From: Sipunculus nudus | Lineage: Eukaryota > Annelida > Sipuncula > Golfingiida > Sipunculidae | Direction of reading: 5' to 3' | Assembly: GCA_026874595.1 (NCBI GenBank) | Contig: CM049319.1 | Coordinates: 5,236,601 to 5,300,600, forward strand | DNA: 64,000 nt | Part shown: positions 14,459 through 56,595 of the stretch, piece by piece | Position numbering within the stretch: position 1 is the stretch's first letter | Layout of the letters: each line of letters begins with the position of its first letter | Translations under genes and position numbers: made by a program | Notes under the pieces: generated by a model | What the model was told of the DNA's origin: nothing | Database searches by the model: none | What the model saw: only the letters and a program-made list of their open reading frames with translations

Positions 14459-29912
<15,454 letters not shown>

Positions 29913-33579: not shown

Positions 33580-35433
33580 TCATATATTAATTAGTTTACC
33601 CCATTTCTTGTAATGTTTATGCAATATTTCTTTACAATCTGCCATGTATCTTTCTACTTTTTCTGTTTCTTTTAATCTACTTTTAAATTCTGCGAATAAA
33701 GATGAATGGTGATTCTCTCTGTGTTTATAGAGGACATATTTATACAATAGGAGAATCTGATTTAACAGCATGTTCGTTTCATTTACTGGAAGGATGCCAT
33801 ATATAATAACACAGAGAGACATGTTTGGAATGCATAATTCATACTCCTGTAACCATGCTTGTAATTTCAAATAAAAGTTCTTACTAACTGTGCAGTGGAA
33901 AAATAAATGAATAATAGTTTCATGTTCAATGAAACAAAATGAACACCGTGGGGTGTCTTTCAACTTCCATTTGAATAAATGTTCATTCACAGGTAAATAA
34001 TTATTAAGTATTTTATACTGAAATTCCCACAAATAGGTACTTAATGTAGTTTTATATATAGCTTGGTATACAAGATCCCATGTAACAACAGTATCATTCT
34101 CTATATTTAAACATCTCCATCTTTCTTGACCTGTTGGTGGTTTCCACAATTTATCCACAAGTGTACGATATATTTTTCTTGACTTTAAACCATTCACCGA
34201 CTCAAGCCCGCTAACTGTAACAATCATATCCATATTTTGTTCACTTTGTGTAAGCTTATTACTGAAAATACACTTTTTCCATTGTGTTGGGATGGCCGCT
34301 TTCAGTGCCATCCAGTTCATGTAATTTAGGAAACTATTACATTGATTTTTAACTTGCATAACAGCATCCCATTTCTTCCAAGATCCCTTATCATCTATCA
34401 TGTCCTTGATATAACTCATCCCCACATCATGCATATTTTTGTAATACACTGACTTTGAATTTATTTTTATATATTTGTTGTTCCACAGATACTGAAACAG
34501 AACATCATCTGGATTTTCTGGACTGACAGACACATAATAAGCCCAGTCCTCAAAACTATTCAAATAAAATTTTGGCAATATAGCAGGTAGCACAGTAACA
34601 TCAAAATTATTTCTGATACATTGTAATCCTCCTATTTTCCTCAATCTGTACTCTAACATCTCATTAATAATTGAGTTTGAAGTATCAAAGAAGCGTTTTA
34701 CCCACATTATTCTCTGGGTCTTAATCTTACAATCAATATCCGGTACATTAATTCCTCCATCATCATATTTTCCAATAATTGTGCTGTATTTAACTTTTGG
34801 CTTTTTTGCTCTCCAGATGAAGTTACATAAAAGTCTCTTTATAGATAGCATTGTATTTTTGGGGGGTAATAAAACATTTGTTATATACAATATCTTTGAA
34901 ATACCTAGTGAGCGCACAACCTCGCCTCTACCATATAATGTCAGGTTTCTAGTTTTCCAAAGTGAAAGTATGGTTTCTAGGTCATTTTCAACCCTCTTAA
35001 AATTCTCCTTGTATACCAGATCTTTATTATATAAAAACCTGATTCCAAGTATTTTTATACAATTGTGTGACAAATCTACCCATTTTAAATTACTATCATT
35101 TGGAGCAACATGTTTTAATGATCCAATGTATGCAGCTTCAGACTTTTGAAGATTTATCCTGAGTGATGAGAAATATTCAAATCGATTTATTACAGACAAA
35201 GAATGTTTTAGTGATTCAATATTTCTAACAAATATAGTTGTGTCATCTGCAAACATGCATATTTTTACAACAGAATTTCCAATTTGTATTCCATGAATAT
35301 TAGTGTCTTTCCTTATCATCATTGCCAATATTTCTACTGCCATTATGAATAAATAAGGAGAGAGTGGGTCTCCTTGCCGTGTCCCTCTTCCTAGCTTAAA
35401 ATATCCTGTAAACTGAACTTTGTATGTCCTCAT
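33580..35433 (-). pseudogene. LINE ORF2: reverse transcriptase palm, thumb and C-terminal zinc knuckle
   Basis: A 617-residue open stretch starting just before RT motif B (RQGDPLSPYLFIMAVEIL), then the catalytic FADDT (YADD-type) about 50 residues later, thumb and connector, and a C-terminal CSFCFIEHETIIHLFFHC zinc knuckle (C-x2-C-x8-H-x4-C) near residue 490. It is the longest open frame in the window. It lacks the upstream catalytic aspartate motif, which sits in another frame at 35396-35641, so the polymerase is not intact. Confidence 0.9.
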
Positions 35434-35951
35434 GCAATAATTTTACCCATCTGATAAAGTGATTATCAAACCCAAAATATCTTAAAGTGGGAAATACAAA
35501 ATCCTGCTCTAAACTATCAAAAGCAGCTTCAAGGTCAGCTGCAAACATAATACCTGGTATGTTTTGTATACAGAAGTATAATGCAATACATTCCATATCA
35601 ATCTGATAGGTTCTGCTATATATCGCCCTGAACAAAGGCATACTGATCAGGCTGGATTATTTTTGGTAGGTATTTTTCAATTCTCTTGACCTTGATCTTA
35701 CTTAATACCTTAACATCCACATTGAGTAAACTGATTGGTCTCCATGCATTAAAAAACTTTATGTCTTTCCCTGGTTTTGGTATTAATTTAACAAGAGCTT
35801 GCTTTTGAGATATTGTTAAGGAGCCAGTTTTGTAATTTTCATTTAAACATTCCGTAAGACAATCCCCAAGTTCACTGAACAAAGCTAAATATAGTTCTTT
35901 TGTCAACCCATCATTACCTGGAGTTTTATTATTTTTGTTCCCTTTAAACAA
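35396..35951 (-). pseudogene. LINE ORF2: reverse transcriptase fingers and motif A, frameshifted
   Basis: Two overlapping frames carry the start of the RT domain. Frame 35616-35951 has KTPGNDGLTKELYLALF and KLIPKPGKD; frame 35396-35641 has motif A, FAADLEAAFDSLEQDF. Frame breaks lie at about 35620-35640 and 35400-35430. Confidence 0.85.
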
Positions 35952-36006
35952 TTATATACATCATTTTACGTAATTAGTTTACCACATGGCAGTGCTTCTA
36001 ATTCAT

Positions 36007-36400
36007 TCAATTTATTCTCACACACAGGAAGGCTCTGAAAAAAAACTGTAATAGCTCTTGATTATTACATACTGCTTTTTTATCATACTTATCAATGAAG
36101 AATTTCCTAATACAAGACATAATTTCAAATGGGTCATTGATTTCTCTACCTTCATATGACAAAGAACGTAATATTGACCTTTTCTTATTATGTTTTTCAA
36201 GGTTTAGAAAATAGTGTGTACCCCTTTCACCCTCAAGTATCCACTGAGCCCTAGACCTAACAATAATACCTTTAGTAATGTTATCATAATATTCTTGCAA
36301 TTTATATTTTAATTCATAATATTCATCACGTGGTTCTTGGCTCCCAGCAGTATTTAACTGACTTTCCAGTTCAGATATCCTCTGTTCCAAACTTATTCCA
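36007..36400 (-). pseudogene. LINE ORF2: linker between endonuclease and reverse transcriptase
   Basis: The frame reads RSRAQWILEGERGTHYFLNL, the usual L1-like linker (W-x-EGE-T-YF), followed by a KHNKKRS region. Confidence 0.8.
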
Positions 36401-36465
36401 TACTCTTTACGTTTCTTTGCCTTATTTTTATAGTATATTTTATTGTATATTCCCTTATCTTGTAT

Positions 36466-37293
36466 TTAAAATACTCCCATGTACCTTGAGCTGTTTTTAA
36501 AGTTACTTCTTGCCTCTATTCTGCTATTTTTACGTTTTACATTACACATATATTCTTTGTCATTAAGCAAATTATTATTCATGCACCAATGTGCAGGTCC
36601 TGACTCTGTGTCATTTCTTGCAGATGCTTGAAATATTACTGCCGAATGGTCAGTGTTAATACTGGGGATTATCTCACAACATGTAGTATATGACAACAAC
36701 GTGTCTGATATTAAAAAATAATCAAGGCGTCTCTGAATTAAGGGTGTAGGTGAATGCCAAGTGAATGCTTTAACTGATTCATGTTTTATGCGCCATATAT
36801 CACATAAGTTTAAAGTATCCATTATCACTGAGATTTTATTAACAGAGTTATGTTTAATACTTAATCTTCCTCCATCAGCATCCCAATCAGTGAGATGTAC
36901 ATTAAAATCCCCACCCAATATTATTTCAATGCCTTGGTCATTTTCAGCGAATTTTCAGTATTTCTTGAAATACTAGTTCATAAAATTCAAGCTGCTGTAT
37001 TTCAGAATTTGGTGTACAAGTGTTAACTAAGATGCAGTGCAAACCTTCAAATTTACATTCAATTTTACATTCAATTATAACATATCTGCCTTTGGTATCA
37101 ATACTCTTATTTATTTCCTTGAAATCAACATTTTTTCCAATAAGTGTACATACTCCACGTGACATTGTAGTTCCGAAAGAAAAGTACATTTCACCACGCC
37201 ACTGTTTTGACCATGCATTCTTATCATTTTTGAACACAGTGACATTCTTGTAAAAAGCAGAATCCATTCTGTGACCCATGCTTCACCAGCCAA
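36466..37293 (-). pseudogene. LINE ORF2: APE-type endonuclease, frameshifted
   Basis: The N-terminal half at 36944-37293 and the C-terminal half at 36466-36918 are in different frames, with the break near 36920-36960. The C-terminal half has the motifs GGDFNVHL and TDHSAVIF (the catalytic D-N and DH of APE-like nucleases). Confidence 0.85.
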
Positions 37294-40094: not shown

Positions 40095-40440
40095 CACATT
40101 TTTACCGGTGATACACTCGAAAGATATATAGGTCACAGGGACCTAATTTCAGTTTTCTGAGGAGAACTTTTGCGGAACTCACAGAATACAAAGGTTCATG
40201 ATTCTAGCCTTTACGGGTATGATTTGTGCCTTGTTAACATATCTATTGTTCTCAAAACACAGGTAAAATTTCGTAAAAATCAAGTTCATAGACCTCCCTG
40301 GGTGTCAAGTTAGAAGATTCCAACTTCCAGCATTTACAACTTGTGCCTTGTTAACGGACGGACAGACGGACAGACGGACGACGGACAAAGAGTGACCAGT
40401 CAGCTGGGCAAAAAACAGACAGGCGACTGAAAACAATAGT
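40095..40440 (+). mobile_element. Diverged fragment of the H2 array family
   Basis: It shares GGGACCTAATTTCAG and GATTTGTGCCTTGTTAAC blocks and the GGACGGACAGACGGACAGAC tract with 18720-20832, and ends near GACCAGTCAGCTGGGC, a decayed form of the H2 hairpin region. Confidence 0.6.
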
Positions 40441-42148: not shown

Positions 42149-42297
42149 CGATATTAGGTGCATGTTTACATTTGTGTTTCGCGGCATGTCACGCCTTCGC
42201 ATGCAGTTGGGTTTACTGATCGTGTACGGACAGTCGGCGTTAATCAGCTGTTTGGCTACGATGATTTGATGCACGAAGGAACAGATCTGTGATCACA

Positions 42298-45200
42298 ATG
42301 AAATATGACAGTGCCATTTTCGAATGGCATGGAACACTCGTTGAAACAAGGGCAGCCCACAGTGTCAGTGGCAGTAGAGGCCACACAACTTTCTCAAGCC
42401 AGCGGTACCAACTTTGCCATGGAGACGGAGGGCTGGATTATGATCTGCGAAGTTCTCACATGCATGAGTTTCAGATCCCAGGAAACTGGAAGATCATTAA
42501 AACTGGACAAGTTACAGATCACAAAACTGGGGTTAATTACCCAACCTTGTTGGCCCAGTGTAAACACAATGACTCGAACGGCTCAAAATGTTGTCTGTTT
42601 CAAGCAAAATCCCCCAGCTTTAAATGGTCAGCAGTTGCTAAATTTACTGTGCCTCATAAGTTAAACCCTGAGGAAACATTTCTCACATCAGGCCCAAATG
42701 TATGTATTGCTCAGAGTTCTACTGTGTGCTACACAACTGTTGACTTGTCAGTCCCTGGGAGAAGAAAGATTAGAAAAGTTGAAAAATTTCAAAATGTTAA
42801 GAAATTGTTGTATGCAGGATGGTTTGATGGCAAGATACATGTGATTGTTGCGGTTAATTTGTCAACTGGAAAAAAAGATGGCTGCTCAAATTTGCATGGA
42901 AAAGCAAAGACTAAGAAAAGTATGGAAGATGGGATTGCGCCTATGGATACCGATCAAAAACCAGACAATGGATGGTCTGAAAAGAACCCAAGAAGTGTAG
43001 CTTTAGGTCATTGTATGATTACAGCACTGGATGCTTCTAACCCTCTAGAAATTATTTTAGATTCAACAGATTCAATACCAGATGTGTATGGATCTATTAT
43101 TGATAAAATTTTAGTATTGGACTTGTCAGTGGAGAGGTTTGAAGTATCTATCAATAAACCAGAAATAAGCTCTCAAGTGAAAAAAGAAAGTGCTTCAAAC
43201 TTTACTGTGTCAATGGATGTGTTGTGCTGCACCAGCAAGTCTCAGCTGCTTCATTTCAGAAATGGAGGACTGGCAGGCTGTGCAAGGTTACCATTCAGTA
43301 ATGCTTCATCGATTGGTGTCGGTGTCATGTGGAGGTGTAAAGCAGTGATCGCTGTCACTGGTTCAGATGGCTTGATCTGTGTCATTGACACATCAACATT
43401 TAAGGTACAAACTAATGAAACCAGTGTATATGAATATTTAGTAATCCCCTGTTATATGAAATCATAGTAATCCCCTGTTATATGCAACCCTTATATGCAG
43501 TTCTCCAAATAAAAATTGATAAAAAGTAAAGCATTTTTGAAAATTGTACACAATTTCTCCATACCTAAGTTTCATTCTAAACGAAAAACAAAATCATTAA
43601 AATCGCCATTTTGTCACATAGACCAGTAATTTTCCAGACAGGTTTCCCGGAACCTTCAAAATGCAAGCCTTGCACTGCAGCTGAATTGTGTTGTTTCCTG
43701 TTCTCATCATTCTGTGAATTTGTTTTCTTTTTAGATTCTTCAGACTTTTGAAGGCTACCTGAATTTTTACATTGGAGATTTCTGTGGAAATGGTACCCAG
43801 CAATTATTTTTGACTGCCGGGCAGTCTACCCAGGTGTCAGCAGACTGGACACAGAGTTTTCTTCTAAGTGACTTTGGGTCAGTCAATGTGGACAAGAGAC
43901 AGGTGATCCAGATGTTATTGATTTAACTATTTTTATATATGCAGACTTCTGTGTTCATTGGTGTTTATTTATGTTTATAAGAACACTTGCTGTTAATGTG
44001 TAGACCAGTCATTGAAAGACAAATTGTTATTGTATCCGCCAAAACGAAGTTTTGCGGATACTATGTTTTTGACCGGGTTCCGCCGCCGCCGCCGCGTTCG
44101 TTTCCGGAGAACTCCTCTGGGACTACTGGACAGATTTTTCCGAAACTTACACAAATTATTGGGTCACATGTGAACTGGTGCCTAACCAAGTGACCTTGAC
44201 CTCTGACCTTTCGTCTCTGCCCAGCGTCCGTTTGTGCGTCTGTTTCCCACACATAAACCCATATATCTCGGGAACCATTTGACTGATCCGGGAAAAAATT
44301 TTACACAAATGTAGCCCTGGGAAAGCTTTATAACATACACAACAAAAGGTGGCGCCACCTGCAACCATGTTTGCACAGTGTCCATCTGTTCATCTGCCTG
44401 GGGTTAAAATCACTCATATCTCTGCAGTGATTTGACTAATTCACCTAAAATTCGGCATGCTTATACATCCTAGATGGCTTTCTCGATTTTTTGACAGGTG
44501 GCGCCACCTACATTCACTTTAACACTCCACACATAAACCCATATATCTCAGGAACCGTTTGACCGATCCGGAAAAAAATTTTACACAAATGTAGCCCTGG
44601 GATAGCTTTATAACATACACAACAAAAGGTGGTGCCACCTGCAACCATGTTTGCACAGTGTCCATCTGTTCATCTGCCTGGGGTTAAAATCACTCATATC
44701 TCTGCAGTGGTTTGACTAATTCACCTAAAATTTGGCATGCATATACATCCTAGATAGCTTTCTCGATTTTGTGACAGGTGGCGCCACCTGCATTCACGTT
44801 TACGCTCCACACATAAACCCATATATCTCAGAAACTGTTTGACCGATCCGGAAAATAATTTTACACTAATGTAGCCCTGGGATAGCTTTATAACATACAC
44901 AACAAAAGGTGGCGCCACCTGCAACCATGTTTGCACAGTGTCCATTTGTTCATCTGCCTGGGGTTAAAATCACTCATATCTCTGCAGTGGTTTGACTAAT
45001 TCACCTAAAAATCAGCATGCATCTACATCCTAGATAGCTTTCTTGATTTAATGACAGGTGGCGCCACCTACATTCACTTTAACACTCCACACATAAACCC
45101 ATATATCTCAGGAACTGTTTGACCGATCCGGAAAATTTTTTTACACAAATGTAGCCCTGGGATAGCTTTATAATATACACAACAAAAGGTGGTGCCACCT

Positions 45201-48200
45201 GCAACCATGTTTGCACAGTGTCCATTTGTTAATCTGCCTGGGGTTAAAATCACTCATATCTTTGGAGTGGTTTGACTAATTCACCTAAAATTAGGCATGT
45301 GTATACATCCTAGATAGCTTTCTTGATTTTATGACAGGTGGCGCCACCTACATTCACGTTTATGCTGCAGACATCCAAGCTCATATCTCGGGAACCGTTT
45401 GACCAATCAGGAAAAAAAATTTACACAAATGTAGCCCTTGGATAGCTTTATAACATGAACAAAAATGGTGGCGCCACCTGCAGCCATTTTTGCACAGCGT
45501 CCATCTGTTTGTCTGCTGTGGGATAAAATCACTCATATCTCTGCAGTGGTTTGACTTTTCCACATGAAATTTTGCATGTGTATATATCTTGGATAGTTTC
45601 TCGTTCAAATAACAGGTGGCGCCACCTACAATCATGTTTATGTGGCAGAGATCCATTCTAATATTTAACACATGTAACTCTGTATCCCCTTGCCACTCAA
45701 TCCATGCCTCACTTCACCCGTCCTTCTCTGATTTGGGCGGATACACGTAGTCGCTTGTCGACTACCCGTATTCTAGTTGCAACCAAGGCCACACACAAAA
45801 AATATTTCTCTATGGACTCTGGGAACAAAAGTATGAGGTGTAAAATGGAAAATTTTATTTTTTTTATTTTCACCTGTTGAGACACAACGTGGAATTTTGC
45901 CAGTTTGCCTAAAATATTAAAAAATTTGCTCCAGTTCTTGAAATGGTAGATATGTTCAACACAATTTTAATCCATTTTCCTTACCTTTAGAATTATTTTA
46001 GGTAATTTTTACCATGGCACAAATTAGGAAGGTTACCAAGGACCTGCAGTTCAGTTGCTATGCTCTGAACACAGCACGTGACCTCCAGGCCCAGTGACCA
46101 TCCATTCACACACTGTGAGAAATTGCAGAATTTTTCATGTTTGGCAACCCCAGTCAGTTTGCACTAGTTAAAGTAAAATCTGTTTGGCTCTACGTTTAAA
46201 AAAAACCAGAACTGGTAGAAGAAATCTGATTGGCTTAGCGCACGTGTAAACAGACATAGCTATGCGGGGCAAGCTCGTGGGGCACGCAATACAGGAAACA
46301 GCAGACAATGGGGGATAACTGACCTCAGGCAAGTCAGTATACAGACTGTGTTGAAAGCTGACAATTGCATCGTGTGTATTCCAATGGGGATGAAAAAAGT
46401 CTATGCTACCAAGTGCTTTCCGCAGCAGTGTAAAGTGACCAGTACCTCGAACAACATCCGGTTGCTGGTGATACCTGCAATGTGTTTAGTTAAATATAAC
46501 GCAGGGGGAATTCCACAGAGACAGCGATGCCTGGTGGCCACACCTGGCTGGCAACTGCTGTTTAATGCAGCGGGTAGTGTAGGGAATAGTTGAGCGTAGC
46601 GTAGCCGCTGCTAATGGAGCATATTCAGTTGCAGGCCAAGCCATGAAGTTATAGTGGGTTACCAAAATGAAGCATGTTGTTTCTGTTTCACTTCCATGTA
46701 GAAGTCTGCTGAGTGCACAAGCTTGCTGGTGATCAGCATTCTGTTCTCTCGTAACATGTTCATTCATAGTAATAATAAAATACCGATAATAATAATAATA
46801 GTAATATGCAACCGTGCATTATGATTTAGATCAGTTTTGATCATTGATCATGTTTTCTTGTATTGTGTTTAGGATCCGTCTTACCAGGATCTTTGTACCA
46901 GAGATACTACAGAGGGAATCCAAGTGACATGCAAGGCTTTACAGCGGAGGTTACAGGTCAGGTCCTATTCAATAGACTTTACTCGGATCTAAATAATCTT
47001 ATTTATTTCCTTTAGTTTAAATGTTTAATAGGGCTGATTCAAGAAACCTAATAAATTCTACAGATAATGTAGGTGAAAAGCTGGCTTTCCCTGCAATAAA
47101 TTCTGTTTGTTGAATTGGTGTTGGGTGCACTGCATGTGATCAATTAATTAGTTTAACAGGAAATTTGGGTTGGAAACCTACAGTCACTGGGCTTGGCCTA
47201 TGCAAGACATTAATTTAAAAAAGATTTTGAGATTTTCTAAGGTATTGTTCCGATCACTGGATTTGCGCTGTGCCTTGATTGTAATTTGATAAATTTGCAT
47301 AAAATTATTGGAGTTATGTTACAGACTACTGGTCATAGAAAAAGTGTAGGTGATCTCAAAAGGAACAACATGCAGCATACCAGTATGTTTCTGAATCTAA
47401 TGCAAATTCTTTAATACAAATTCTTTGAAAAGAATTTCTCACAAGATAAGTCAAACTTGAATTAAAAAAACATGTGTTGAATATCCCTGTAAGTAAAAGG
47501 AACACAAGCCAAGGTGTGAAACTATGAGAACAACAGGATTTCATGGCTTCATTCCTCACATTCAATGGCCAAATTTTAGTTAATGGTAAAAACGTGAGTG
47601 AATTCTGTGCTTATTAAAACCACTGCAGTCAGATCTGTCCATCAGGAACAGCTTAGTACATGCCGTTTCGATCCAAGTTAGGAAATGAATATTTTCTTGA
47701 AAGCCCCCAAAGTACCCTGGAAATCCATTTTACTCATTAAGCTTATTTATAGATATCACGTGATCATGGGATTTTAAACATTGTGAAGTGTTACTGTCAG
47801 ATGATTTCAAGGGAATGTGCTCATATCTTTCTAATGTGTAATTTTGTTGGATTTCTGTTGATTGCAGCTGAACCAGACTGCCCTCTGTCAGGCACAACAG
47901 AAACTACAGCAGACAGTCTTGTTCCTTCACAGATCTGTCACAGGCCTGCAGAAACTCCTATTATGGCAGGAACCAGTCTGTACAAATGATATGAGGCTAT
48001 TACCTCTCCCAGGCTGTAAACATGATACCAGGGCCACTGAGTGGTCTAAAGAACTGGTGAAGGAGCCAGCAGATGTAGTGACTGCCAGAGACATCTGGTG
48101 GAAAACCTTGGAACAACACATCGTGTTTGGTTGTGATGTGACAAACTCTTCAGACCAGTAAGTCTTCTGTTCTAGCCTTGTTTACAATTTGATTGTATAA

Positions 48201-52436: not shown

Positions 52437-55105
52437 TTTAGCGAACCTGTGAGCTTATGTGATGGCGCAGCATCATCCGTCCATCGTCTGCCGTCCAGGG
52501 CTGGCTTTCCGCTGTCCATGGCTGTAAGTCAGAAACCGTCGGAGCCAGCAGCTCCAAATTACATGTAAGAATTAGTCACGTGAAACTTGGTGCCCTGGAG
52601 CTTATTATTGGGTATCTGCATTAATTTAGATTGGAACTTAGGAGAGCTGGGGAAATGTTGTAAAATTTACCCTTGTAGAGGTGTTCTGCTGAAGGCCATG
52701 CTGGTTATTAATTTTTAGCGAACCTGTGAGCTTTAGCGATGGTGCGTCGTCGTCCGTCTTGTGTCGTGCGTTGTGCGACGTGCGTCGTCTGTACGTTAAC
52801 CATAGCTATCTCAAAAACGGCAGGAGCTAGCATCACCAAATTTTTTGCAAATAATCAGTCATCCAAAAAACTATATCGGATTTTGTTTCTTTTTTTTCTA
52901 ACTTCATTTTCTTAGATTTTATAGGGAAAAAGCTAAAAAACCTTTAAAAATCTTCTTCTCTGAAACTGTCCAGCCAAATTGTCCAATATTTCACAGAAAT
53001 GATCCCTGGAACAACCTCTCTAAAGTTTGTTGGAATGGTTCCAGTTCGGAGATTTTTGGCCGAGTTACAGGAGGTTGAACTTAGTCATCTGTCCAAAAAA
53101 GCGCACTAAAATTAAAATCTCAGAAACGGTTAGAGCTATAATCATCAAATTTTAAACCAATGTTTGTCACATATGTCATATCTGATTTTGAGGTGTTGGT
53201 GGCGCCACCTACATTGATGTGTTTTTTACAAGCGAAAATGTAATTTAAACTCTTCTAGCTTATACACTGGTTTATGATGAAACTGTAAAGCTGATTGGTT
53301 TAAACTTTACAAGAATTATTCTAGGGAATTTCAAGGGAACGTTTACCCTATACCTGCTTGAATGTAATTAATTAAATTTATTATTAAATTTCTAACTGTT
53401 CTAAACTATTTACATACAAGTATTGGTTTCACTGAACAAGAAGAACATACTCAACTGGCCAATTATTCCGGAGGGTTTAATTTTCGCGATTATTTCCCAT
53501 TCGCGAATATCGCGAAATTAAAACCCTCACGAACAAAAGACAACCACAGTATATCTTTCAACTGTTTGAAAAAACTTGGTTTGCATTTTAATAGAATTGG
53601 GTTTATCATCAGGTCACATGTGAACTGCTGCTCCTTCATTTTTGGTTGACCTCTGACCTTTCCTCACTGCCAAGCGTCCTTTTGTGCGTCTGTTGCCACA
53701 CATAAACCCGCATATCTCAGGAACCTTTTGACCGATCAGGCTAAAAATTATGCACAAATATAGCCCTTTGATAGATTTATAACATACACTGAAAATGGTG
53801 GCGCCACTTGCAACAATTTTTGCACAGCGTCCATCTGTTCATCTGCCATGGGATAAAATCACTCATATCTCAGCAGTGGTTTGACATATAAGCCTGAAAT
53901 TTTGCAGGTTTATACATCCTGGACAGCTTTCTCGATTTTATGACAGGTGGCGCCACCTACATTCATGTTTACTCTGCAGACATCCAAGCTCATATCTCGG
54001 GAATCGTTAGATCGATTGGGCCAAAATTTTGCATGTGTATAAATCTCATATAGTTCTTCATCATAGGCAAAACTGGTGGTGCCACCTGCAACCATTAATG
54101 CACAGCACCCATCTGTTCTGCCTTGGGATAAAATCACTCATATCTCAGCAGTGGTTTGGCTTATCCACCTGAAATTTTGCAGGTTTATACATCCTGGAAA
54201 GCTTTCTCGATTTTATGATAGGTGGCGCCACCTACATTCATGTTTACTCTGCGGACATCCAAGCTCATATCTCAGGAACTGTTTGACCAATTGGGCCAAA
54301 ATTTTGTAAATGTTTAGATCTCACATAGCTCTTTATCATAGGGAAAACTGGTGGCGCCACATGCAACCATTTTTGCACAGCGTCCATCTGTTCATCTGCC
54401 TTGGGATGATATCACTCATATCTCAGCAGTGGTTTGGCTTATCCACGTGAAATTTTGCAGGTTTATACATCCTGGACAGCTTTCTCGATTTTATGACAGG
54501 CGGCGCCACCTACATTCATGTTTACTCTGCGGACGACCAAGCTCATATCTCGGGAACTGTTTGACCAATTAGGCCAAAATTTGGAAATGTTTAGATCTCA
54601 CATAGCTCTTCATCATAGGCAAAACTGGTGGCGCCACGTGCAACTATTTATGCACAGCATCCATCTATTCATCTGCCTTGGGATAATATCACATATCTCA
54701 GCAGTGGTTTGACTTATCCACCTGAAATTTTGCAGGTTTATACATCCTGGACAATTTTCTCGATTTTATGACAGGTTGCACAACCTACATTCACGTTTAC
54801 GCTGCAGACATCCATGCTAATATGCAACACACCTCACTCTATTCCTCTTGCAACTTAATCCATGCCTCACTTCACCCGTCCCACTCTGATTTCTGCGGAT
54901 ACACATAGTCGCTTGTCGACTACCCATATTCTAGTTTTAAAATGTCCTAGTCTGAAACTTGCAGGATCGAAATGTCCATTTTGCTGAAATCATAATGACT
55001 AAGGTAGATATGCAGGACATAAAAGGATCAATATTAAATTTTAAAAATAAACCTCCATTCAAACTTTGCACAGGTTCGCATTAGGCCTGTAGGCCTTGTT
55101 AACAA
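52437..55105 (+). mobile_element. Composite Helitron-like element (family H5) hosting a nested H1 copy
   Basis: TTTTTAGCGAACCTGTGAGC occurs at about 52437 and again at about 52715. The far end has the inverse, GCACAGGTTCGCATT, at about 55068, followed by the palindrome AGGCCTGTAGGCCT and TTGTTAA. Between are GTCCGTC-type tracts and a GTGGCGCCACCTACATTGAT block resembling H1 units. The H1 copy at about 53612-54934 and a TTCGCGATATT-type element at about 53460-53550 are inserted in it. Confidence 0.55.
53612..54934 (+). mobile_element. Helitron-like element, family H1, 5'-truncated copy
   Basis: It begins at GGTCACATGTGAACTG, about 125 bp inside the full-length start, and carries the same tandem units with GGTGGCGCCACC palindromes. 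It ends with the hairpin TAGTCG-CTTGT-CGACTA, CCATATT and CTAG at 54931-54934 before T. Confidence 0.8.
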
Positions 55106-55256: not shown

Positions 55257-56365
55257 CTACCCCCACCCCGCCCCGGTCTTCCAAGTTCCAGTTGTGCCAC
55301 GTCTCACGATCCTCTGACACTTCCGTTTGACATTGCAGCACAGGATCCAGGGAAGCTTAAGAGCCCGAATGATGATTGTATAACATATGAATTAAGGTGC
55401 TCATTCACCTACCTTTTAAAAAAGTTATGTGTTTTCTGGCTTCATTTGTGTATATATTTATGATCTAAGGGTAATTCTGGTTATGAAAAGTCCTTATAAG
55501 GCCTTCATGAAGGATGTATGAACATGTTTATGAACAACATGATTGTAAACAGAGCAATGTTGACAAACGGGAAAAACGTAACCGAAGTGGGAAAGTTACA
55601 TATAAATCCAGGTAGAAAGGTCACTTGTTGCAAAACGCCATTTGCAAAGTTCTGGCTTATCTGACTTGCCGCCAGATGCCATTGTTGAATTGTTTTATTT
55701 GGCGGGCCTCGACAAACATACACGTTGATATAAACAAAACATATTTCTTTTTTTTTGTTGGAGTAAGAAAAACTTATTTCTTTTTTTTTTGTGTGTGAAA
55801 ATGTATGTTGAGACTCCTAGATATTATGCTGAGATTTTAAGATCCTATCTCGAGATTTCGACATAAAAAAAAATTCTGTCCCCTGAATAAGCCACCGTAC
55901 AAACGAAAGGACCAAGAAACAATTCATATCCTAACATTGCAGTCTTACGTCAGCTGTTATTTGCTGCAAAGCTAACACGAGTTCCATGTATCAAAACAAA
56001 CAAAGGTCTTATGTTGGCTGGCGGGTTTCAAACTCGTATTTTTTATAAAAACGTAAATTTTGCAACCGGCCACAGGGTTCCAACAACCAACATTTCCTCG
56101 CTGGAGTACACATTCGCCCCTCGAGGCACAGTCGAAAGTATATACATACATATTTATATATAGGTATATAACCGTCATTTAAAGAAATTTATGCAAAAGG
56201 TGTTACACGGTTTGGTGAGAAATCATCCGACATCATCCAAGTTATATGCATCGTTAGTTATTTTGTTTGCTGGACTAACTGAGAATTGTGCTTTATTCTA
56301 AATAACATGAATATGATGTTTTTTGCTGAATACGGTTAGAAAACTAGTTGTCATGTGCGCGATGG
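55257..56365. other. No gene recognised
   Basis: Two poly-T runs flank 55745-55790; nothing else is identified. Confidence 0.4.
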
Positions 56366-56595
56366 TGGCGCTCGGTAAAAAGTCCCTAGCGCTCGGTAGT
56401 TCCAAGTATGTAAGAACACTGCCTGTTGTTAGAGCAGGGTAGCGATCGGTAAAAAGACCGAGCGCTCGGTAGCCCTACGCGGGTCAGAGCAATGCCTGGT
56501 GTGAATCCAGGGTAGCGCTCGGTAAAAAGTCCTACCGAGCGCTAGCGCTCGGTAGCGCTCGGTACGCTCGGTAGCGCTCGGTAAAAAGACCGACC
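56366..56595. repeat. Irregular tandem cluster of AGCGCTCGGTA
   Basis: AGCGCTCGGTA or one-base variants occur about ten times, several followed by AAAAAGWCC. AGCGCT is itself palindromic. The copies sit in two looser groups (about 56370 and 56440) and one dense group (about 56513-56585). Confidence 0.85.

Follow-up and report, generated by a model that had tools for sequence, protein, structure and literature searches.

We analyzed a 64,000-nucleotide (nt) stretch of the Sipunculus nudus genome (assembly GCA_026874595.1, contig CM049319.1, forward-strand positions 5,236,601 to 5,300,600), hereafter the window, with positions counted from its first letter. It contains three related copies (A, B and C) of a repeat-bearing element, two neighboring elements of comparable build (X and Z), remnants of a non-LTR retrotransposon and several probable exons (Table 1 and below). 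Copy B is a real element with defined ends and, very probably, a non-autonomous Helentron (HINE) with a central satellite-like array; it is best filed as a new family of the HINE type, a kind already known, for example, from the oyster Cg_HINE. The family is known here from the three copies in this single window, and the evidence on its 5' end comes from two of them.

Table 1. Features of the HINE-type family and of the neighboring elements (IR, inverted repeat; subTIR, subterminal inverted repeat)
Feature	Position	Strand	Basis or remark
Copy A, both ends, one unit, two palindromes (1 exact), 5' IR missing, 3' hairpin partly decayed	16458..17060	-	
Element X, second HINE-type element, own ends, six units of ~339 bp	18593..20833	-	3' end by eye
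Element Z, third, HINE-like, 144-bp array, 5' TTATTA and hairpin, 3' CTAG/TT	24004..25298	-	3' end by eye
TT flanking B on the 5' side (target side; assignment of the Ts ambiguous)	44027..44028	+	TTATTGT before ATCC in A and B, outer flanks differ
Copy B, full-length HINE-type element, 1748 bp	44029..45776	+	both ends common to A, 3' end to C; five-unit array
B 5' subTIR GTATCCGCCAAAAC	44032..44045	+	read directly; inverse near 3' end
B IR complementary to the 5' subTIR, pairing with it as 5' hairpin	44049..44061	+	DNA fold
B left-flank short (CCG)n microsatellite	44080..44096	+	read directly; less regular in copy A
B central satellite-like array, five 280-bp units	44247..45638	+	Tandem Repeats Finder
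B 3' subTIR, inverse of the 5' subTIR, one mismatch over 13	45732..45744	+	comparison by eye
B 3' palindrome/hairpin GTAGTCG-CTTGT-CGACTAC, 11 nt from 3' end	45747..45765	+	pattern search, fold
B terminal CTAG, then TT	45773..45776	+	identical in A, B and C
F0, aligned as a stray diverged monomer, intact palindrome at 53198-53209	53098..53239	+	
Copy C, 5' truncated, about four units, eight monomers, 2 of 8 palindromes exact	about 53612..54934	+	

Boundaries and terminal structures

The initial annotation had described a Helitron-like element at 44035-45776, beginning with TC after an A. Its 3' end stands, and the start lies about six bases farther upstream, at 44029. The sequence TTATTGT ahead of ATCC is common to A and B; farther upstream the two copies diverge, with 7 of 20 bases identical. 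The window has 357 ATCC sites, which form 63,546 pairs, and 0.07% of these pairs have seven identical upstream bases, repeat-derived pairs included. At the 3' end, the CTAG that had been noted before a T continues as CTAG/TT in all three copies, after which the flanks differ (slashes mark the boundaries). TT flanks A and B at both ends and C at its 3' end. Because the copies agree upstream of ATCC (A and B) and at the 3' end (all three) and diverge beyond, we place the bounds at TT/ATTG...CTAG/TT. Insertions of HINEs in a mite likewise have at least two Ts at each end (PMC4067079). The discriminating value of CTAG may be limited given that element Z also seems to end in CTAG/TT, as judged by eye from a single copy.

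The 5' subTIR of B starts 3 nt inside the 5' terminus, within the range of two to four nt given for the subTIRs of the mite HINEs in the accessible text of PMC4067079. The 5' foldback predicted from the initial reading is real: it consists of GTATCCGCCAAAAC, GAA and GTTTTGCGGATAC, and folds as single-stranded DNA with an energy of -10.9 kcal/mol (z -6.65), equaled by none of 200 shuffles. To the right of the array follow, in this order, the inverse GGCGGATAC, the 7-bp stem GTAGTCG-CTTGT-CGACTAC, and CTAG, ending 11 nt beyond the stem. The subTIR and its inverse are found in both two-ended copies, with one mismatch over 13 (B) and one over 12 (A) by eye, and C retains a partial copy of the 3' subTIR. 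The inverse had been proposed from the letters of B, and the wider search bears it out: GGCGGATACA with up to one mismatch has five matches in the window against 1.32 expected (1 of 100 shuffles reaches five), and all five sit at the ends of A, B or C. For TATCCGCCAAAAC at three mismatches, there is no excess in the window (16 against 14.8 expected). The IR complementary to the 5' subTIR is present in B and missing in A, that is, in one of the two copies with a 5' end.

The stem of the 3' hairpin, also proposed initially, is a perfect 7 bp in B and 6 bp in C, and is partly decayed in A. The pattern GTAGTCG-N5-CGACTAC, allowing up to three mismatches, has three matches in the window (0.41 expected; 3 of 100 shuffles reach three), each of them at the 3' end of one of the copies A, B and C. 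The support for this hairpin is positional because all pattern matches fall at these ends and the folding energy is unexceptional. Over the last 60 nt, A and B are identical at 51 positions, A and C at 50, and B and C at 54.

Array structure and variation between copies

Tandem Repeats Finder delimits five copies of period 280 with 90% matches in B, in line with the five units of about 281 bp counted initially. The 280-bp unit is itself a dimer of two diverged monomers of about 140 bp, each carrying one site GGTGGCGCCACC. The two near-perfect palindromes attributed to each unit are accordingly present as ten GGTGGCGCCACC sites in B, 8 of them exact and 2 with one mismatch.

We aligned 21 monomers: ten from B, eight from C, two from A and the stray F0 (at 53198). 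The first four type-a monomers of B are 92-96% identical to one another, and the last one (B8) is 82-87% identical to these and 83% to A0 and C0. For type b, identity among the first four monomers is 87-94%, and B9, the last, reaches 73-80%. Local expansion by unequal exchange or slippage may account for such uniform runs that end in a divergent monomer on the 3' side.

The number of units is one in A, five in B and about four in C. Thus, as the initial annotation had anticipated from an alignment of copies, the array differs in length while the ends are constant (the 3' end in 3/3 copies, the 5' end in 2/2). These copies bear directly on the view that the locus is an ordinary satellite array with coincidental terminal features. 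The array does make up most of the length of the element; nevertheless, one 3' end recurs at three places with differing flanks and unit numbers, and one 5' sequence recurs at two, which renders that view negligible. Readings as satellite only or as chance were set aside as contradicted by the three related copies.

Classification and possible mechanism of movement

The HINE assignment draws on the ends relative to two copies, the foldback, the subTIRs, the 3' palindrome, the TT flanks, the lack of a long reading frame and the variation in array length. The order typical of HINEs, a 3' subTIR followed by a palindrome near the 3' end, is present. The longest stop-free stretch in B spans 110 codons, coding capacity being judged here by stop-free length alone, and seven crude Rep-helicase motif patterns gave no match in the window.

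Several observations weigh against this assignment. Only A and B possess a 5' end, and both copies with two ends can also be read as A/TC and CTAG/T. In copy A, the 5' foldback cannot close, the IR being absent, and the 3' hairpin has partly decayed. The energy of the 3' hairpin is ordinary (shuffles as good: 10 of 200 for B, 33 of 200 for A and 25 of 200 for C). In element X, shuffles match the folding of the 5' region in 1 of 200 cases and that of the 3' region in 89 of 200; only the former folds well. The string TTATTR as such is not enriched in the window (202 sites against 185 expected, reached in 10 of 100 shuffles). Pattern scans of viral and prokaryotic contig collections found no further copies, although such misses carry little weight.

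Some of these points would fit a canonical Helitron (Helitron1) that starts with TC, ends with a hairpin and CTAG and inserts between A and T, the foldback and inverse repeat being incidental. As A precedes TCC in A and B, an A/TC start is formally compatible with both, and the shared upstream bases would then be a coincidence. T follows CTAG in both two-ended copies and, indeed, in all three; the 3' CTRR before T expected of Helitron1 is thus present, and the hairpin of B ends 11 nt from the 3' end, as is described for Helitrons in the accessible part of PMC4067079. However, the sequence common to two insertions with differing outer flanks extends seven bases ahead of ATCC. Furthermore, Helitron1 has no 5' hairpin, whereas that of B is strong (none is left in A), and this hairpin together with the subterminal inverse is foreign to Helitron1 as portrayed in the sources at hand. 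We therefore regard a Helitron1 identity as very unlikely. The initial annotation had named boundaries away from TC and CTAG as grounds for abandoning its reading: the boundary is indeed displaced from TC in A and B, and coincides with CTAG in all three copies. What survives for B is the Helitron-like character, together with the hairpin at either end and one Helentron trait; the canonical Helitron start is not supported.

Within the HINE assignment, a subdivision is conceivable in which B is a non-autonomous element of the Helitron2 type, with similar ends and a partner devoid of the endonuclease domain. The layout described for Helitron2 in the available portion of PMC3627910 is equal to that of B, with inverted repeats set in by 0-2 bp at the 5' end and by about 20-30 bp at the 3' end, and a hairpin at either end. 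The satellite array, the microsatellite and the TT flanks, in contrast, are closer to published HINEs, and we consider the Helitron2 variant quite unlikely. Because the ends of Helitron2 and Helentrons are alike, the ends by themselves do not discriminate between types of partner.

For B as a HINE, we infer movement by an autonomous Rep-helicase from elsewhere in the genome. Such an enzyme would nick B and copy it by the rolling-circle mechanism. Under the model of Bao and Jurka, as outlined in the accessible text of PMC3627910, the 5' and 3' inverted repeats would pair, destroying the 5' hairpin and thereby setting the end point of replication. The copy would then enter a TT site without target duplication. 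The array would be passive cargo that grows and shrinks through unequal exchange or replication slippage.

Neighboring elements X and Z

Element X has its own subTIR, CTCAGCTGAC, with an inverse, a microsatellite of the GTCC type, and a 339-bp unit with GGTGGCGCCACC in its consensus. A blastn comparison of X with B (E up to 0.01) yields a single 22-bp match, at the palindrome. Element Z matches neither B nor X (blastn, E up to 0.01). No clear 3' subTIR was seen in Z, and its end, apparently CTAG/TTTT, was placed by eye in a single copy. At 40100-40420, a segment resembles part of the X repeat by eye and is followed by a (GACGGACA)n microsatellite.

The window contains 456 TTATT sites, five of which are directly followed by a hairpin of at least 8 pairs. 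The three strongest of these hairpins, with 11, 11 and 12 pairs, mark the 5' ends of B (+, 44027), Z (-, 25300) and X (-, 20835). Each of 14 control 5-mers has 0-4 such hairpins, so that the count for TTATT is not distinctive, only the strength. The control hairpins have at most 10 pairs, except for those at ATTAT/TATTA, which are the X and Z sites shifted by one base, and at one AAAAA site located in another repeat (56524). Tandem and inverted repeats of the GGTAGCGCTCGGTA type are present at 56364-56583.

A palindrome recurring in otherwise unrelated repeats

Two otherwise unrelated elements, the B family and X, carry one short palindrome in their repeats, which is the odd point of this locus. 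With up to two mismatches, GGTGGCGCCACC has 26 sites in the window against 0.38 expected, a count that none of 100 shuffles reaches. The palindrome is exact at 8 of 10 sites in B, 2 of 8 in C and 1 of 2 in A. At the palindrome, the unit consensus of X contains a 15-mer of the B unit; none of 1000 shuffles attains 14. When the X unit is compared with B by blastn with E up to 1, the 26 matches comprise 18 that overlap the palindrome and 8 with E no lower than 0.07.

Between the monomer types, identity is 91% in the palindrome and 53% in the rest, and no 12-column window is better (125 of 20,000 column permutations reach it). The stray monomer F0 is 95% identical to the others in the palindrome and 46% outside it. 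Non-CpG substitutions relative to the type consensus number 7 of 200 in the palindrome against 340 of 2588 elsewhere (Fisher p = 1e-5; 20 of 21 monomers), with the CpG positions of the palindrome (4 of 40) counted separately; the monomer rows are related by descent, so that these conservation tests overstate independence and significance. Conservation between the monomer types extends to a second block, around CTCATATCTC, and within type b, windows other than the palindrome are better conserved. In X, the palindrome does not stand out from the unit around it: conservation is 0.756 there against 0.785 in the remainder, 215 of 349 windows score higher, and the exact sequence is present in just 1 of 6 units. 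Folding of the palindrome by itself is unremarkable, 90 of 200 shuffles doing as well.

These patterns are about equally compatible with a neutral palindrome that was inherited by both monomer types, reached X by exchange between elements and has no function, a possibility to which we assign even chances. Its lack of special preservation in X, the few exact sites in C, the better windows in type b and the second block around CTCATATCTC all fit neutrality. Pulling the other way are the excess identity between monomer types, the deficit of non-CpG substitutions, qualified as above, and the 15-mer in the otherwise unrelated unit of X. The palindrome may have a function; its conservation is strong between the half-unit types and not special within X. 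As a guess, it might serve as a binding site for a host DNA-binding protein or as a site of breakage and rejoining of arrays. In a clam satellite, a 12-bp palindrome is associated with 13 of 16 junctions, according to the accessible part of PMC5139131.

One half of the palindrome, AGGTGGCGC, resembles what we take to be the core of CTCF sites. The pattern AG[AG][GT]GGCGC has 24 matches in the window, every one of them located at a palindrome in A, B, C, X or F0. The idea of a CTCF site rests on this half-site because a wider CTCF consensus has no match in the window. In a more elaborate scenario, which we consider unlikely, AGGTGGCGCCACCT would be a putative site for one host architectural protein that was acquired and multiplied independently in the arrays of unrelated Helentron families, so that these elements would disperse groups of boundary or regulatory sites across the genome. 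Molluscs are reported to have CTCF orthologues (PMC10658182), and a guide oligonucleotide directed at a CTCF site in human includes AGGTGGCGC (PMC6344568). If the palindrome proves to be bound by a host factor, this could explain the uptake and retention of certain repeats by such elements.

Other content of the window

Remnants of a non-LTR retrotransposon lie at 33580-36954 (-), with the Pfam domains RVT_1 and zf-RVT (33580-35442) and an endonuclease (36466-36954). Just upstream of B, at 42265-43467 and about 43735-43905 (+), there are probable coding exons. The frame 42265-43464 gave no match to Pfam (E up to 0.01) or PDB (E up to 1); Pfam was run on 7 of 14 stop-to-stop frames. Despite this lack of matches for the first exon, these exons may have FANCB-like features. 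Short stretches at about 17400-25500 (-) resemble what we take to be exons of YIPF3. Searches of the window with Rfam (at the gathering score) and ARAGORN returned no matches.

Comparison with known systems

The closest likeness is to Cg_HINE of Crassostrea gigas, in which the accessible text of PMC7492417 describes a subTIR, an IR, a microsatellite, repeats, a second subTIR and a palindrome, with a TT target and no duplication. The element from S. nudus has the subTIR, the complementary IR, the microsatellite, a short satellite-like array, the 3' subTIR followed by a palindrome, and TT flanks. The Cg_HINE arrays consist mostly of 140-180-bp monomers according to the same partial source, and the monomers of B are about 140 bp. 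Several unrelated families coexist per genome in the oyster; here, the B family, X and Z occur in one window. Compared by description only, B differs in its 280-bp dimer unit and in the perfect 12-bp palindrome in the consensus of each monomer; the accessible text of PMC7492417 does not speak of a palindrome inside Cg_HINE monomers.

Also by description, and within the available text of PMC4067079, B resembles HINE-Mo of a mite in the subTIR just inside the 5' terminus, two or more Ts on either side and the 3' palindrome, and DINE-1 of Drosophila in the 3' palindrome, IR and microsatellite. The IR, present in DINE-1, Cg_HINE and B, is missing in HINE-Mo. Helitron2 (PMC3627910) and the non-canonical Helitrons of Fusarium (PMC5148889) share asymmetric terminal inverted repeats and hairpins at both ends, but satellite arrays are not described in the accessible portions of these papers, and the Fusarium target differs. 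Six 13- to 22-letter strings of the element have no occurrence in open-licence literature text, figures and supplements being outside its reach; the 12-letter palindrome string occurs there in at least one paper, on chitinase.

Short central repeat arrays similarly characterize the bivalve Pearl-type elements CvA, CvE, CvG, DTC84 and MgE, as described in parts of PMC7492417, PMC5139131 and PMC11136912, with Pearl arrays of up to six repeats of about 160 bp. In DTC84, a conserved palindrome lies near the repeat junction (PMC5139131, accessible part), which adds to the likeness. The oyster papers portray satellite-carrying Helentrons as a means by which satellite-like repeats are dispersed across the genome (PMC7492417, in the text available). 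The element from S. nudus adds a family to these Helentrons, with copies of one, about four and five units within one 64-kb stretch.

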